From positions 1 to 64,000 of the forward strand of contig VGXC01000018.1 in the NCBI GenBank assembly GCA_016873495.1: a stretch of DNA of 64,000 nucleotides. The letters are read 5' to 3'. The stretch is from Nitrospira sp. GTDB lineage: Bacteria; Nitrospirota; Nitrospiria; Nitrospirales; Nitrospiraceae. The notes under the pieces are model-generated. The model was not told the DNA's origin, ran no database searches, and saw only the letters and a list, made by a program, of their open reading frames with translations. Both the position numbers and the translations under genes were made by a program. Positions 3,578 to 59,482 of the stretch are shown one piece after another; the stretch's first letter is position 1, and the number at the start of each line of letters is the position of its first letter.

Positions 3578-3668
3578 GTTGAGGCTGAGGTCAAGGCTAA
3601 GCCGGTGGGACCGCTCAGCATGAAGCTGCAAATGGTTTTTCTCTCAACCTGAGCCTGAGCCTCAACCT
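3576..3668. repeat. Spacer inverted repeat (GAGGCT-type arms)
   Basis: Arms 3576-3590 and 3654-3668 match at 14 of 15 positions. They are built from GGTTGAGGCTGAGG-like units, with extra partial copies inside. The left arm begins within the proA stop codon and the right arm ends at the GTG start of the next gene. Confidence 0.75.
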
Positions 3669-5456
3669 GTGGATTCTCTGATCCTCTCCGTCCTGACCCA
3701 ACCAGGCAGCCTGACCTTTCCTTCCAATCTCTCCTTCGCGAAGGACTTTGCGTCCGCCGGCGTCCAAGTCGTCCGCCAACCCAGCGGGCACCTGGTTTTT
3801 TACGGACCGGACCGGCGACGCTTTCTCGCCACCGATCCGAAGGGCCACCCCCTGCACGAATGCGAGTGGGGACCGGCCCCCGATGGCCGGACTTCGCTCC
3901 TCCGCGCCCGCCTGTGTCTGGACTGGGGCCAATGGGTGGGACTCAAGCCGGGCGGCCTCGTCAACTCGACTCAACTGGACCTATCCAAAAAACCGGGGTG
4001 GCAACGGTTGCGCGCCGACGACCTCCGGCAGATGGCGGCCCAGGCGATGCACGTTCCCTTCGAGGAAGTCAAATTCTTCTACGGCGACGAGGATCTGGTC
4101 ATCGATGCGCGCGGGCAGGCCACCATCCGGCACAAGAAGGATTCCTTTTACGTTCTCAACGACAGGACCTTCGCCCAGGCCCGATTCATGGCCTGCATGG
4201 GCGCGATGCATTGGAGCCGGATCGACTTCCTGCCGGTCGTGGAACTGTTTCAGTCGCTTCTGCCGGGCACCGGCTCGGCCGCCTTCGAGCTGATCCGTGG
4301 GCTCTATGACGACCAGAATGAAGGCCAGGCCCAGCCGCTGCCGCTCCGGTATCGCGGCATCCCGACCTATCCGTCCGAAGCAGCCTACCGGCTGTTCAGC
4401 GCCTTTTTCACCCCGCACCTTCCTCACGGCGGCGATCCGCTGCCGATCTTCATGGATCAGTCGCGTTCGCATGAAGTCCTGTGGCTGCCCGCGGCCGATC
4501 AGCCGCGGCGCTATTTCGAGCAGGCGCACCGGCTCTGTCTCACCATCAAAGGAGAGGCCGTCCAGAAAGTCACCAAGGCCGACGACCCGACCGGGCTGCC
4601 CTTCGTGAAGCCGGGCCCCAACGGGTTCGCCCCCTGCGAACGCCGCGTCACGGTCAAGGGGGGAGCCCTGTTGCTTCACGACGGCCATGAGACGGCGGGC
4701 ATTTCGCTCAGCCCGGCATGGGGCAGGATCGAGGAAACGGCGCGCTCATCCGGCGGGGGCACGCCGGCAGGGAAGGGGTGGCAGTCGCTGTTCGGCGGGC
4801 ACCCGTTATCCGTCGAGCCGGCCCAAGCCTTTTCGGCGGTCCTAATCTATCCGGATGACGACCGAGAGATCGGCGAACTCGAAAGCCAGCCCTTCGTCGC
4901 CGATTACCTACAGGACATGATCGAGCAAGTGCCGGAATTGTCGTCGCGCGTCGGCCGCAGCGCGACCGTGTTGATCGACGGATTCGATGCGGCCATCACC
5001 ACCTGCCTCAGACTGGATGGCCTCCGCAACCACACGATCCTCTACACCCATCGGGCCTTTGCTCAAAAGCAGGCCCAAATCCTCTGGAACCAACTGGCCC
5101 AGACCGACCATCTGGATTGGCTCCCACGCTTCACATTTTTTCCGGCGGCCAGCCATAGCGAATCCGTCTACCGGCAGCCGCATGATGTGCTCTTCGCCTG
5201 GACTCCCTTTCAGGACTCAGCCCGGCCGGAGACGCTCCAGCGGGCCTGCCGCCGGACAGCGGCCGCCTTACGCCCAGGCGGCCTCGTGTTTCTAGTCGGG
5301 CCAAGCGCTGCGCGGCCCCACCTGGCCTCCTCGGGCCTGACCGTCCTTCAGCAGACTCCGGTGGAACAACTGCCGACCTTCGCCATGCACCGCACGATCC
5401 TGCCGGCAGCCCGCCTCAAGCCCGACCTTATGCTGTGCCTCGCAACCAAGCGCTAA
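3669..5456 (+). CDS. Large protein of unknown function
   Basis: 595 residues; not recognised. There is no signal peptide and no clear membrane segment, so it is probably cytoplasmic. The C-terminal 165 residues (around TVLIDGFDAAITTCLRLDG and AAALRPGGLVFLVGPS) resemble the second half of a Rossmann SAM-methyltransferase fold, but the glycine-rich SAM motif is not evident. The GTG start abuts the spacer repeat and has no obvious ribosome site; a start farther in is possible. The coding bias matches its neighbours. Confidence 0.75.
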   Translation: MDSLILSVLTQPGSLTFPSNLSFAKDFASAGVQVVRQPSGHLVFYGPDRRRFLATDPKGHPLHECEWGPAPDGRTSLLRARLCLDWGQWVGLKPGGLVNSTQLDLSKKPGWQRLRADDLRQMAAQAMHVPFEEVKFFYGDEDLVIDARGQATIRHKKDSFYVLNDRTFAQARFMACMGAMHWSRIDFLPVVELFQSLLPGTGSAAFELIRGLYDDQNEGQAQPLPLRYRGIPTYPSEAAYRLFSAFFTPHLPHGGDPLPIFMDQSRSHEVLWLPAADQPRRYFEQAHRLCLTIKGEAVQKVTKADDPTGLPFVKPGPNGFAPCERRVTVKGGALLLHDGHETAGISLSPAWGRIEETARSSGGGTPAGKGWQSLFGGHPLSVEPAQAFSAVLIYPDDDREIGELESQPFVADYLQDMIEQVPELSSRVGRSATVLIDGFDAAITTCLRLDGLRNHTILYTHRAFAQKQAQILWNQLAQTDHLDWLPRFTFFPAASHSESVYRQPHDVLFAWTPFQDSARPETLQRACRRTAAALRPGGLVFLVGPSAARPHLASSGLTVLQQTPVEQLPTFAMHRTILPAARLKPDLMLCLATKR

Positions 5457-52428: not shown

Positions 52429-52707
52429 TCAGGGATTCTGCCACATGGCCCCGTCGTGGACAGGGTTGAACTGATGGGTCAGCTTCACCGTATCCCCGTC
52501 CTTGACTTTCGAGTCCAGCCCGCCGACTTTCCGGTTGACCGTGATGAGCAACTCCCCCTTGTTCATGAACGGAAGCAGGCCGCCGAGACGGTCCTGATTG
52601 TGTTCCAGCAACGCCTTGAACGTCACCGGCTCCGAGACCTCGCACTGGAACTCGGATTCGCCCGTCGCTTGGCGCAAGGTTTCCCCGAACAACAAGAGCG
52701 TGACCAT
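52429..52707 (-). CDS. MoaD/ThiS-like ubiquitin-fold protein lacking the C-terminal GG
   Basis: 92 residues from ATG 52707. VTLLLFGETLRQATGE at the start and ELLITVNRKVGGLDSKVKDG then DTVKLTHQF fit the MoaD/ThiS beta-grasp fold. Sulfur carriers of this fold end in Gly-Gly, but this one ends GAMWQNP, so it cannot be thiocarboxylated unless processed. It follows the diheme protein gene by 10 bases. Partner unknown. Confidence 0.75.
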   Translation of the reverse strand: MVTLLLFGETLRQATGESEFQCEVSEPVTFKALLEHNQDRLGGLLPFMNKGELLITVNRKVGGLDSKVKDGDTVKLTHQFNPVHDGAMWQNP

Positions 52708-52717
52708 AGTTCCCTTT

Positions 52718-52963
52718 CTATCCTCGTTCTTCCTGGCGGTGGCACCGGAAACAATCCTGTCGCTTGGGATGCCGGTCGACCAAGGGACGGCTCTGTCCCG
52801 CCGCATGACATCGGAGACAGTCCTTCTCCGACGTCAGGTTGCGATGCTTCGGAGTGCCTGGGATCGGCGGATTCCGCTCACGCGGCGACGGGAGCAGCGA
52901 GACCATGAGCACCACCAGGGCCGCCGCCAGAAGGAAGACCCAGTCTGCCCGCCTGATCGTCAA
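52718..52963 (-). CDS. Small membrane-anchored diheme c-type protein
   Basis: 81 residues. One N-terminal membrane segment (about 8-25) is followed by two heme c motifs, CLRCH (about 49-53) and CFRCH (about 71-75), so it should face the periplasm with two hemes. The TTG start overlaps the TGA of the upstream oxidoreductase (TTGA). It looks like an electron acceptor or donor for that enzyme; this is inference from position. Confidence 0.75.
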   Translation of the reverse strand: MTIRRADWVFLLAAALVVLMVSLLPSPRERNPPIPGTPKHRNLTSEKDCLRCHAAGQSRPLVDRHPKRQDCFRCHRQEERG

Positions 52964-55785
52964 GATGCACCAACCGGGGGTGGCCCCTGTGCGGCCTCCT
53001 GCAACAACTCGGCCACGTGCGCGACCCGTACCCGGTCATCCAGCCCATTCCTCAATTGAATCATGCAGGCCGGACAACTGGTCGCCACCACCTCCGCCCC
53101 GCTTTCCAGGATCGCGCGCCGCTTCCGCTCGAAGATGTTCTGCGAGGTCGTGTAATCTTTGACGAGATAGGTCCCCGCCCCTCCCGCGCATCGATCCGCA
53201 TCCTGCATGTCGACAAACTCAACGCCCGGCAGCTTGGCCAAGACCTGTCGCGGCTGCTTCATCACCCCGGCCGCACGCAGATGACAGGAGGAATGATAGG
53301 TGACCCGCTTTCGGTCAAGCCCGGTCCGATACTGCACGGATATCGGGGATGCCGCGACCACCTCCGTCACGTGTTTGACCTTGGCCGCCAGCCGTTCGGC
53401 CTCGGCCCGCTCCGGACCGGCCTCGAACAGCCTGGGATAATCCTTGAGCATCAAGGTGCAGGAGGCGCACCCGGTCACGACGGTTTCAAAGGACGCGAAG
53501 GAGGCCAGATTGAACCGGGCTGCATCGAGCACCAGATCGGTATGGCCGTACGTTTGGATGGGGGTTCCCGAGCAACGTTGGGGCGGCAAGACCGGCTCGA
53601 TCCCATGCTGGCGCAAAACGGCGATGACGGCGTCCCCGACTCCGTCGTCGAAATACTTGGCGGCGCAGCCGTGAAAGTAGGCCACCTTCCGCCCTGCCGG
53701 TCCGCCGCCGACACCAGATGTCGCAAGATCGGGGTATCGTTCAGGCAGTTGCCGGGTCGCCAAGCGAGGGAGCCGTAAGTCATGCGGGATCCTGGCCGTC
53801 TTGGCCAGACAGCGCATCATAGGACCCGTGAGCCGTTCCAGCCAGAGGCGTGGCCAGGGGCGGTCCCAAAGCGATTGCGTAAACGCGGCGCCTTTCAACA
53901 ACAGATCGAACAACCATCGACGCGCTTGCAGTTTGAAGATATACCCGGCCAGCCGGTTGGGCTGCTCCGCACGCCGCTTCAGAATCAGATCCGACACATC
54001 CACGCCGGCGGGGCAGACGGTCCGGCAGGACTTGCAGTTCAGACAGGCCTCCACCACCCGTTTCGAGTTCAGGTAACTGTAATCCTTGGCCGTGACGATC
54101 TCGAACCAGCCGCGCGCGCTCATGTCCTCGGACTGGAACACATCGTAGACCGGACACACGGAATTGCACTTGGCGCAGGTCGCGCACGGCTTGGCCAGGC
54201 GGGGGAAGTCGATATGGTCGGTAAAAGGCGCGTCGCTGATCTTCACCCCGGGATTCAACACTCCGGCCGGATCCAGGCTGCGCTTAACCTGAAGGAACAG
54301 GTCATAGAGTTCAGGCCCGAACATCCGGCGGACGAACGAGGCCCGCACCCGCCCGTCTCCATGTTCGCCGCAGATGGAACCGCCGAACCGGGTAAGCACC
54401 GTCTCGTGGATCTCGCGATGACCCTCAACCATTCGGACATAATCGGTCTGGTTATTGATATCCAGCAAAGGAACGATGTGGGCGTTGCCGTTCCCGATGT
54501 GGCCGAAAATGGCGACGGGGACTTGTTGCGCGCCGAAGTACCCTTCCAGATATCGAATCAGCTCGCCGATCCGTTCCGCAGGCACCACGACATCATCCAC
54601 GTAGTTGATCGGCTTCTTCCTGGAATCGTAGCGATAGAGCGTGGGATAGAGCGCTTTGCGCGCCTTCCATAAGGCATCCCGTTGTTCCCGCTCAAAGGCT
54701 ACCGCCGGCTCCCCAGCCATGCGGTAGCGTCGGCAGACCGAGATCAGGCGGCCGGCCAGCTCCTCGAGGCTCGGCCCTCCCGCCTCCTGGTCCAATTCGG
54801 CCAACAGCGTGGCGGCCGCATCGGACGGAATGCCATGCGCGGCCCGCCCGATCAGATTCAACGTGTTGCCATCCATGACCTCCAGTGCGCTGGGGGACAG
54901 GGCCAGCAGGCGGGGGATCGCCTCCCCGACGTCTTCCAGATGCCGAAAGTGCAGCAGGGCCGTGGCGCTGGCCTTCGGGCGGTCCACCAGTTTGATTGTC
55001 GCTTCGCTCATGACTCCCAGCGTGCCCTCGCTGCCGACAAAGAGGCGCGGCAGGTCGAACTGAGCCCGATCCAACCCATCGACCAATCCGAACAGATTAT
55101 ACCCGCAGCTGTTCTTGCTCACGGTCGGTCGCTTGGCCCTGATCGTCTCCGCATGGTCCTGCACGAGCCGCAGGACCCCGCGCAAGGACGGATGGTCGCT
55201 CAGCACCTGCGCCAGGGCTGGATCGGTCAGAGACAAGGGATGCGCATCCAGCCAGCCGGAGGCCAGGCAGACCCTCAAGGTCAGGACATTATCCTTTACC
55301 GAGCCATAGCGGAGGGTATGGGGCCCCGAGGAATTGTTGGCCAACATCCCGCCCAATTTGCACATGTCTCCGCTGGACGGATCCGGACCGAACAACAGGT
55401 CGGATGGCGCAAGCCGTCGATTCAGCTCCGCATAGACGATCCCGGGCTGCACACGCGCCCATCGCTCTTCCTGATTGACCTCCAGAATCCGGTTCAGCTT
55501 GGACACGTCGAGAATGATGCCCGGGCCGATCGCGGAACCGGTGAGATTGGTCCCGGCTGCCCTAGGCGTCAGCGGCACCCCCTGCCGGACCGCATAGTCC
55601 AAAGCCCGTTCGATATCCGCCTCGGAATCCGCCAGCACGACCGCCAGCGGAACGATTTTGTAGATGCTGGCGTCCACGGCATAGGCGGTCAACGTGGGAG
55701 CGTCGTCGCGCACCCGCTCGGCGCCCAACAGACGGCGCAAATCCGAGGCCACGGACCTGGGTTTTTCAGGCAGCAGCAGTTCCAT
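52960..55785 (-). CDS. FAD-linked oxidase / Fe-S fusion (GlcD-GlcF type)
   Basis: 941 residues. A PCMH-type FAD domain (about 40-230; PRAAGTNLTGSAIGPGIILD) and FAD-oxidase C domain (FGHIGNGNAHIVPL, GEHGDGR) are fused to two 4Fe-4S clusters (CATCAKCNSVC and CLNCKSCRTVC, about 545-610) and two CCG-type domains (GCAAKYFDD, SCHLRAAG). This is the layout of D-lactate, glycolate or D-2-hydroxyglutarate dehydrogenases; the substrate is not decidable. The next gene encodes a diheme protein. Confidence 0.9.
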   Translation of the reverse strand: MELLLPEKPRSVASDLRRLLGAERVRDDAPTLTAYAVDASIYKIVPLAVVLADSEADIERALDYAVRQGVPLTPRAAGTNLTGSAIGPGIILDVSKLNRILEVNQEERWARVQPGIVYAELNRRLAPSDLLFGPDPSSGDMCKLGGMLANNSSGPHTLRYGSVKDNVLTLRVCLASGWLDAHPLSLTDPALAQVLSDHPSLRGVLRLVQDHAETIRAKRPTVSKNSCGYNLFGLVDGLDRAQFDLPRLFVGSEGTLGVMSEATIKLVDRPKASATALLHFRHLEDVGEAIPRLLALSPSALEVMDGNTLNLIGRAAHGIPSDAAATLLAELDQEAGGPSLEELAGRLISVCRRYRMAGEPAVAFEREQRDALWKARKALYPTLYRYDSRKKPINYVDDVVVPAERIGELIRYLEGYFGAQQVPVAIFGHIGNGNAHIVPLLDINNQTDYVRMVEGHREIHETVLTRFGGSICGEHGDGRVRASFVRRMFGPELYDLFLQVKRSLDPAGVLNPGVKISDAPFTDHIDFPRLAKPCATCAKCNSVCPVYDVFQSEDMSARGWFEIVTAKDYSYLNSKRVVEACLNCKSCRTVCPAGVDVSDLILKRRAEQPNRLAGYIFKLQARRWLFDLLLKGAAFTQSLWDRPWPRLWLERLTGPMMRCLAKTARIPHDLRLPRLATRQLPERYPDLATSGVGGGPAGRKVAYFHGCAAKYFDDGVGDAVIAVLRQHGIEPVLPPQRCSGTPIQTYGHTDLVLDAARFNLASFASFETVVTGCASCTLMLKDYPRLFEAGPERAEAERLAAKVKHVTEVVAASPISVQYRTGLDRKRVTYHSSCHLRAAGVMKQPRQVLAKLPGVEFVDMQDADRCAGGAGTYLVKDYTTSQNIFERKRRAILESGAEVVATSCPACMIQLRNGLDDRVRVAHVAELLQEAAQGPPPVGAS

Positions 55786-58777: not shown

Positions 58778-59482
58778 ATGGACTTAGCTATACGCAATCC
58801 GACTAGGTATTCTGCAAGGTTGATGAGGCCGATTCTCGTGTTGCTGGCCGTTCTGGCGCCAACAGGTTTCTCCCTCGGCGCTGCCGACTCGGTGTCAGCC
58901 GCCCATGTGGTGGAAGTGCCCGTCTTGTCGGCCGTCACTTTCAACAATAAGGGCGCCTTCCAGGTCATGGTCATGAGTTGGGACCGGCAGGCGGCGCCGG
59001 ACCCCGCCGAGGTCAAGTGGGGGAACAACCGCGTGAGAGTCAGAGGAACCGCGCTCGGAGCCATGGGGACTGCGTTTGTATATGCCGCGGAGCAGAGCAG
59101 CTCGCTTCACCCGACTGGCACAATCACGATCTACGCCGCCTCGTATGCGCCGACCAGCAGCGACGGCCCCAGTGCCGGTGCCGCCATGGCCATTGGGTTT
59201 CTGGCTGTCTTGCGGGGGGACCCGATTCTCCGCGGGGTCGCCCTCACCGGCACGCTGCAGCCGGAAGGGCGGATCGGCCCGGTGGGCGCGATCCCGGACA
59301 AAGTTCGCGCGGCGGCGCGCGAGGGGTACCGCACAATCCTCATTCCCCAAGGCCAATTTAACGGACCGTTGAGCGACCCCAAATGGAACCTCAACGGGCT
59401 GGCCATGGAACTGGGGCTGACCATCAAGGAAGTGGCGACGATTCACGAGGCCTATGAACTCATGACCGGACGCCGGCTGTAG
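58778..59482 (+). CDS. Secreted Lon-type (S16) serine protease domain protein
   Basis: 234 residues. A signal peptide ends near GFSLGAADSVSA. What follows is the proteolytic domain of Lon without any AAA+ ATPase: the catalytic Ser lies in SSDGPSAGAAMAIG (about 129-142) and the catalytic Lys in IPDKVRAAAREGY (about 170-182), with LTGTLQPEGRIGPVG between. It would act outside the cytoplasm without ATP. ATG 58778 fits the promoter; ATG 58823 would give a shorter signal peptide. Confidence 0.85.
   Translation: MDLAIRNPTRYSARLMRPILVLLAVLAPTGFSLGAADSVSAAHVVEVPVLSAVTFNNKGAFQVMVMSWDRQAAPDPAEVKWGNNRVRVRGTALGAMGTAFVYAAEQSSSLHPTGTITIYAASYAPTSSDGPSAGAAMAIGFLAVLRGDPILRGVALTGTLQPEGRIGPVGAIPDKVRAAAREGYRTILIPQGQFNGPLSDPKWNLNGLAMELGLTIKEVATIHEAYELMTGRRL

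Follow-up and report, generated by a model that had tools for sequence, protein, structure and literature searches.

The window analyzed here, a stretch of 64,000 nucleotides (nt) from a Nitrospira sp. genome of 3.19 Mb (assembly GCA_016873495.1, contig VGXC01000018.1), makes up nearly all of its contig (C18; 64,090 bases) and contains, within positions 52429–55785, a cassette of three genes that all lie on the minus strand. In order, they encode a fusion dehydrogenase with flavin adenine dinucleotide (FAD), 4Fe-4S, and CCG domains, a small protein predicted to be a diheme c-type cytochrome (hereafter the diheme protein), and a MoaD-like beta-grasp protein (Table 1). The fusion enzyme, the TTGA overlap, the 81-residue anchored protein with two CxxCH motifs, and the MoaD-fold gene 10 bases further on were all found as described in an initial annotation of this DNA. 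The MoaD-like gene starts with an ATG at 52707, 10 bases past the diheme stop, and the mechanically called open reading frame (ORF) opens further up, at 52806. Outside the cassette, the plus strand of the window encodes at 58778–59482 a 234-residue protein whose start looks like a signal and whose sequence is reminiscent of the Lon (S16) protease domain.

Table 1. Positions of the three cassette genes and of features within them (window coordinates; aa, amino acids; pLDDT, predicted local distance difference test).
Feature	Position	Strand	Basis
FAD / 4Fe-4S / CCG fusion dehydrogenase (YdiJ/Dld-II-like), 941 aa, ATG start	52960..55785	-	ORF, Pfam, sequence comparison
Stop/start overlap TTGA (diheme TTG start on fusion TGA stop)	52960..52963	-	Sequence
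Membrane-anchored diheme c-type cytochrome (predicted), 81 aa, TTG start	52718..52963	-	ORF, alignment, model, hydropathy, Pfam
Single hydrophobic anchor of diheme protein, residues 6-24	52892..52948	-	Hydropathy; model helix 5-22
Heme 1 motif CLRCH of diheme protein, residues 49-53	52805..52819	-	Cys49, Cys52, His53 invariant, n=34
Heme 2 motif CFRCH of diheme protein, residues 71-75	52739..52753	-	Cys71, Cys74, His75 invariant, n=34
His40 of diheme protein, candidate distal heme ligand	52844..52846	-	Invariant, n=34; ligand role inferred
His65 of diheme protein, candidate distal heme ligand	52769..52771	-	Invariant, n=34; ligand role inferred
GG-less MoaD-like beta-grasp protein, 92 aa	52429..52707	-	ORF, Pfam, alignment, model, Foldseek
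C-terminal tail of MoaD-like protein, residues 80-92 (...DGAMWQNP), conserved, probably flexible, replaces GG end	52432..52470	-	Low pLDDT, tail counts

Pfam analysis of the fusion showed FAD_binding_4 and FAD-oxidase_C domains, a 4Fe-4S dicluster region (Fer4_8, Fer4_17), and two CCG stretches, which together constitute the one-chain architecture of the Dld-II/YdiJ type. The solved sequences closest to its flavin half were those of glycolate oxidase, D-lactate dehydrogenase, LctD, and D-2-hydroxyglutarate dehydrogenase, and two segments seen by eye, GHIGNGNAH and GEHGDG, presumably have the roles familiar for them. Alignment with YdiJ of Escherichia coli MG1655 gave 26% identity over 839 columns, and the YdiJ family model NF049975 returned 265.2 bits, below its curated cut-off of 1350 bits. 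Because the architecture is shared at this identity and score, the fusion is, judged by its domains, a 2-hydroxyacid dehydrogenase of the YdiJ/Dld-II kind outside the YdiJ equivalog, and it probably oxidizes small hydroxy acids. Its best 19-residue mean hydropathy was 1.58, compared to 2.44 for the one strong hydrophobic segment of the diheme protein; hydropathy gave no membrane span, and no export signal was recognized by eye at its start (no signal-peptide predictor was run). Lacking both a hydrophobic segment like that of the diheme protein and a signal-like start, the fusion should therefore be cytoplasmic. At one locus (L104, 1506–4107) the match to the fusion is split in two, through either a broken copy or a sequencing error.

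The cysteines and histidines of both CxxCH motifs of the diheme protein, together with His40 and His65, are invariant in all 34 aligned sequences, a set that is as expected for two bis-His hemes and that matches the pattern of a c-type diheme cytochrome (two CxxCH motifs plus conserved distal histidines). In the predicted model the helix stands ahead of the heme motifs (mean pLDDT 79, predicted template modeling score only 0.45). At E ≤ 0.01, Pfam Cytochrome_C7 was matched by 30 of the 34 sequences (best E 8.1e-5) and Paired_CXXCH_1 by 21 (best E 2.2e-6); the Pfam and NCBIfam matches of the window's own copy were all under the curated cut-offs. The top solved sequence for the diheme profile was NapB (1jni, E 0.0016), with more NapB and DHC2 chains at E 0.11–0.37, and in hhalign E. 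coli NapB reached a probability of 89, a set of six NapB sequences 84, and the single control, NapC, 8. The sole Foldseek match to the model was the diheme cytochrome DHC2 (2czs, E 1.5). We regard the protein as weakly NapB-like in its core, and not as a NapB itself. Relatives were present in 44 of 61 genomes, the window's own included, and the ratio of nonsynonymous to synonymous substitution rates (dN/dS) between the window's copy and those of two congeners was 0.148 and 0.158; this conservation and low dN/dS are beyond chance. The cytochrome c maturation protein ResB is encoded in the window's genome, which suggests only a capacity for making heme c. Among individual loci, the diheme frame of L067 (7989–9074), and also of L033, continues without a stop into what by eye appears to be a secreted phosphoesterase, representing a chimera, a gene fusion, or an assembly error, and the diheme match of L109 (8001–8229) is split in two by a broken copy or a sequencing error.

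The MoaD-like protein barely reached the Pfam ThiS model (22.8 bits; cut-off 22.5). Its predicted model has the beta-grasp fold of the MoaD/ThiS carriers (mean pLDDT 84), with a tail of low confidence from approximately residue 80. The best Foldseek match was E. coli MoaD (1fm0_D, E 1.9e-6); the 18th, 8ahx_H (E 1.1e-3), is chain H of the Azotobacter vinelandii Rnf structure, a chain that we take to be RnfH. That the protein lacks the GG end, as had been noted initially, holds throughout: none of the 52 complete copies ends in GG, and 51 of them terminate in Asp/Glu-Gly followed by five or six residues, mostly of the DGAxWxNP or DGTxDIPx type. It is plausible that this tail acts as a docking peptide. 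A separate ORF in the window's genome (contig C21 of G000) was read by eye as a MoaD-MoaE fusion with GG, and cofactor synthesis should therefore not need the cassette copy; a role as molybdopterin sulfur carrier was rejected on account of the missing GG and of this separate ORF.

Other MoaD-like genes were encountered outside this arrangement. Many genomes of the order (uncounted) have a second paralogue, the copies of which, as read at 97149–97376 of contig C5 in the window's genome (G000; L119 from 9150) and at L120, L121, L122, L123, L124, L136, and L138, end in HDGxGG plus 1 to 9 residues, an ending that looks as though the GG needs trimming to be exposed. A link between this paralogue and another CCG protein was considered and not used, the two genes being divergent and ~1.6 kb apart at the one locus inspected; in G034 (L122), a rubrerythrin-like gene stands by eye between the paralogue and a divergent gene for a GlpC-like CCG protein. 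Extra copies of the GG-less type occur away from the cassette at L137 (7934–8209, genome G004) and in G034 (contig C1, 523943–524218). The copy at L137 adjoins, by eye, cobalamin-type and metE-like genes, and no recognizable FAD/Fe-S gene was seen beside it. At L158 (G076, contig C89), two tandem GG-less MoaD-like genes (4074–4331 and 3665–3922) directly follow the fusion, at the place of the diheme gene.

The linkage of the three genes was followed in a survey of 146 genomes of the window's order, for which at least 90% completeness was requested, and in a set of 60 named loci obtained by scanning genome contigs with the diheme alignment. Of the named loci, 59 were labelled with the genus Nitrospira or with the family or phylum to which it belongs, and the last (L095) with Nitrosospira; they included Nitrospira moscoviensis (L062) and Candidatus Nitrospira defluvii (L079). 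The fusion and a close MoaD-like gene were adjacent on the same strand in 127 of the 146 genomes, and in 53 the diheme gene stood between them (gaps of 255–497 bases), so the conservation of the trio that the initial annotation had proposed to look for by gene-neighborhood search is borne out. Junctions between fusion and diheme gene at 58 named loci overlapped by 4 nt in 51 (50 ATGA, 1 GTGA) and by 1 nt in 4, and were separate or broken in 3. Whole or cut by a contig end, all three genes were present in 52 of the 60 diheme loci. No fusion was found in the available sequence of L071 and L108, and the latter stops inside the diheme gene, so that the place of its MoaD-like gene is not visible. 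The remaining surveyed genomes had fusion and diheme (3), the MoaD-like gene only (4), the diheme only (2), diheme and MoaD-like gene (1), the fusion only (4, in which partners may be cut off by contig ends), fusion and MoaD-like gene on separate contigs (1), or none of the three (4). Two of the genomes with only the MoaD-like gene (G103, G147) carry it within ~1.2 kb of a contig start, and the fusion may therefore be cut off.

Regional synteny was controlled for through scpB, which was looked for at 71 loci with room for it, using tblastn and the protein of the window; a match counted if it lay on the fusion's strand and no more than 600 bases upstream, and a very divergent scpB could escape this search. 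It was found just upstream in 16 loci. At 43 of the 55 others the fusion is still followed by the MoaD-like gene (with accA also retained downstream at three, L056, L061, and L126), and the 12 without it were six named loci and six loci from outside the order (L150–L155), at which neither the diheme nor the MoaD-like gene was found in 12 kb around. The neighbors matched around the cassette were scpB, a helicase, accA, and dnaE. With scpB upstream in just 16 of 71 loci, regional synteny was rejected as the sole cause of the contiguity of the cassette.

Parts of the cassette also occur apart. A FastTree phylogeny with local support only was built from 79 fusions (59 with the diheme, 14 without, and 6 from outside the order), the 14 being a thin sample of diheme-less fusions and the long outgroup branches being flagged. 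Inside the order, this tree requires three or more changes of the diheme label, and the group that branches off first there carries the diheme; in our own reading, the gene would be ancient and would have been lost on three or more occasions. In G009 (98% complete) and G026 (89%), the diheme and MoaD-like genes stand directly behind scpB, and G039 and G045 have the diheme without fusion or MoaD-like gene. For pairs in which neither genome had a detected fusion, diheme dN/dS was 0.159 (G026 and L108), 0.146 (G039 and G045), and 0.361 (G026 and G009); the diheme gene is still under purifying selection in these genomes. The initial annotation had presented the genes as a coupled trio; as an obligate unit this did not stand, each pair occurring without the third gene. 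Because each part can occur without one of the others, the cassette looks like a modular electron pathway and not a fixed three-part machine.

The best explanation, which we put forward tentatively and by analogy, is a modular respiratory cassette of the window's order, with a fusion that would deliver electrons to quinone, a periplasmic diheme, and a docking MoaD-like protein. The cytoplasmic fusion would oxidize a D-2-hydroxyacid at its FAD, most likely D-2-hydroxyglutarate or D-lactate, with two 4Fe-4S clusters and its CCG domains relaying the electrons on to the inner membrane face and the quinone pool there, which GlcDF- and GlpC-type enzymes are thought to reduce. The diheme protein, co-translated with the fusion via the overlapping genes, would have one helix in the membrane and two bis-His hemes in the periplasm, where it may take electrons from quinol or a quinol oxidizer and hand them to a periplasmic acceptor; NapB passes electrons on in nitrate reduction. 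The 4-nt overlap would ensure that donor and outlet are made in matching amounts. The MoaD-like protein, probably no sulfur carrier, may use its conserved tail to dock on the dehydrogenase or on the membrane site of that enzyme, a role modeled on that of cofactor-free RnfH within the Rnf complex.

In 74 of the 146 genomes the fusion-MoaD-like pair occurs without a detected diheme (gaps of 33–322 bases, median 103), which speaks against an obligate trio. A number of observations weigh against the best explanation itself. The MoaD-like gene is missing at six named loci with fusion and diheme (L067, L069, L081, L083, L087, L089), and three genomes of the f2 lineage have fusion and diheme without a close MoaD-like gene. 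No relative of the fusion was found genome-wide at E ≤ 1e-20 in G009 and G026, which keep the MoaD-like gene, and in G070 and G095, where E ≤ 1e-100 brought no match to the fusion, a MoaD-like gene stands downstream of scpB; a protein retained in genomes in which the fusion was not found may have another function. The likeness of the diheme protein to NapB is weak, the histidine of the IPH segment of NapB being displaced; the Pfam NapB model (PF03892) had no match genome-wide at E ≤ 1, and a LIM-domain protein (PINCH, E 0.022) ranks second for the diheme profile.

Among the alternatives, electrons would pass, as the initial annotation had it, from FAD through Fe-S to the membrane hemes, bypassing quinone; the three proteins would then form one complex. 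The genes overlap in 55 of 58 loci (by 4 nt in 51 and by 1 nt in 4), and the cassette stays contiguous though its surroundings change, both in line with such a route; however, the fusion has neither span nor signal-like start, heme c attachment takes place exclusively on the outer side of the cytoplasmic membrane, and the cassette has no spanning redox subunit. That annotation had itself named placement on opposite membrane sides without a link as an argument against its proposal, and the evidence on fusion and hemes comes close to this arrangement. Direct Fe-S-to-heme transfer is therefore very unlikely, all the more with the diheme undetected beside the adjacent pair in 74 of the 146 surveyed genomes and with intact dihemes where no fusion was found. 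As a direct jump across the membrane is not plausible, electrons most likely meet through quinone, and the separate occurrence of fusion and diheme is more in keeping with contact via a shared pool than with a hard-wired chain. It is also distinctly improbable that the proteins form a membrane complex of their own, where a mini-NapB diheme and a GG-less clamp of ubiquitin fold would provide a YdiJ/Dld-II-type enzyme with a private outlet that bypasses the usual complex III; if true, cytoplasmic 2-hydroxyacid oxidation would reduce periplasmic cytochromes, and an acceptor would be named for the YdiJ/Dld-II-type family. A further alternative, which we regard as unlikely, is shared inheritance only, with the diheme and MoaD-like proteins acting in other processes and their position beside the fusion simply inherited. 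The low diheme dN/dS of two of the three pairs without a detected fusion, together with that of the third, and the MoaD-like genes retained downstream of scpB without a fusion (L031, L032, L156, L157) agree with it, but the 43 of 55 loci that keep fusion and MoaD-like gene without upstream scpB, including the three with accA downstream, and the 4-nt overlap in 51 of 58 loci do not.

Two more alternatives concern the nature of the accessory proteins themselves. The 81-aa protein might be a membrane-anchored cytoplasmic zinc ribbon (CxxC-x18-CxxC) and no cytochrome, as the spacing of its cysteine pairs and two weak profile matches to LIM-type zinc proteins (the one at rank 2 and another at E 0.63) would allow; the histidine after each CxxC and the two additional histidines, all invariant, and the frequent Cytochrome_C7 and Paired_CXXCH_1 matches make this hardly credible. 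Trimming after Gly86, which is invariant in 35 sequences, could turn the MoaD-like protein into a sulfur carrier or modifier before use, and the paralogue with HDGxGG and a short extension in the same genomes is compatible with such processing; given 0 of 52 copies with a GG end and the separate MoaD-MoaE ORF, we consider it most improbable (no search for E1 or JAMM genes was made).

No description of the cassette was found in passages of the YdiJ paper or in titles or abstract openings of open-licence papers on Nitrospira hydroxyacid enzymes or MoaD, YdiJ, or D-lactate dehydrogenase with diheme cytochrome, which agrees, within this literature, with the initial statement that the trio was not a described system. 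In our own rating, the dehydrogenase is of a known type and its two accessory proteins are new. Its distribution provides natural controls in the form of genomes with the cassette, without it, or with part of it. The question of the acceptor of YdiJ-type enzymes becomes directly testable in Nitrospira, known as nitrite oxidizers, since the gene of a relative overlaps that of an anchored diheme cytochrome.

YdiJ itself is the D-2-hydroxyglutarate dehydrogenase of E. coli and Pantoea, and passages of the report on it state that its physiological electron acceptor is unknown (PMC9504171). It resembles the fusion in carrying flavin and Fe-S on one chain and differs from it by the low identity and by a model score far under the cut-off; in E. 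coli, ydiJ adjoins menI, and the 12 kb around it carry no annotated gene for a diheme or MoaD-like protein. To our knowledge, no overlapping diheme gene exists at Dld-II, the D-lactate dehydrogenase of Shewanella, which is presumably similar in length to the fusion. Compared by description only, in passages of the published account, Dld-II is likewise a one-chain flavin and iron-sulfur enzyme with the same kind of domains (PMC4481167). The diheme protein shares with NapB, in the same order, a PxIP segment, C(L/M)xCH, a histidine, and P(K/R)R..C..CH, but has approximately half the length and a helix anchor, with the IPH histidine moved and no Pfam NapB match in the genome. With the MoaD/ThiS sulfur carriers, the cassette protein has the beta-grasp fold in common, whereas the C-terminal GG is replaced by a tail of the types described above. 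RnfH and TmoB are characterized in passages of Iyer et al. (PMC1779556) as stand-alone ubiquitin-like domains in redox-enzyme gene clusters; the words glycolate and FAD are absent from the main text of that paper. Passages of a further report describe RnfH as an extra cytoplasmic subunit that carries no redox cofactor (PMC12174285). The MoaD-like protein belongs to another sequence family and accompanies another enzyme, with which it may interact, but, like RnfH of A. vinelandii Rnf1, it is a small beta-grasp protein linked to a redox enzyme, and it joins RnfH as a possible case of a beta-grasp protein taken up as a structural part of such an enzyme.

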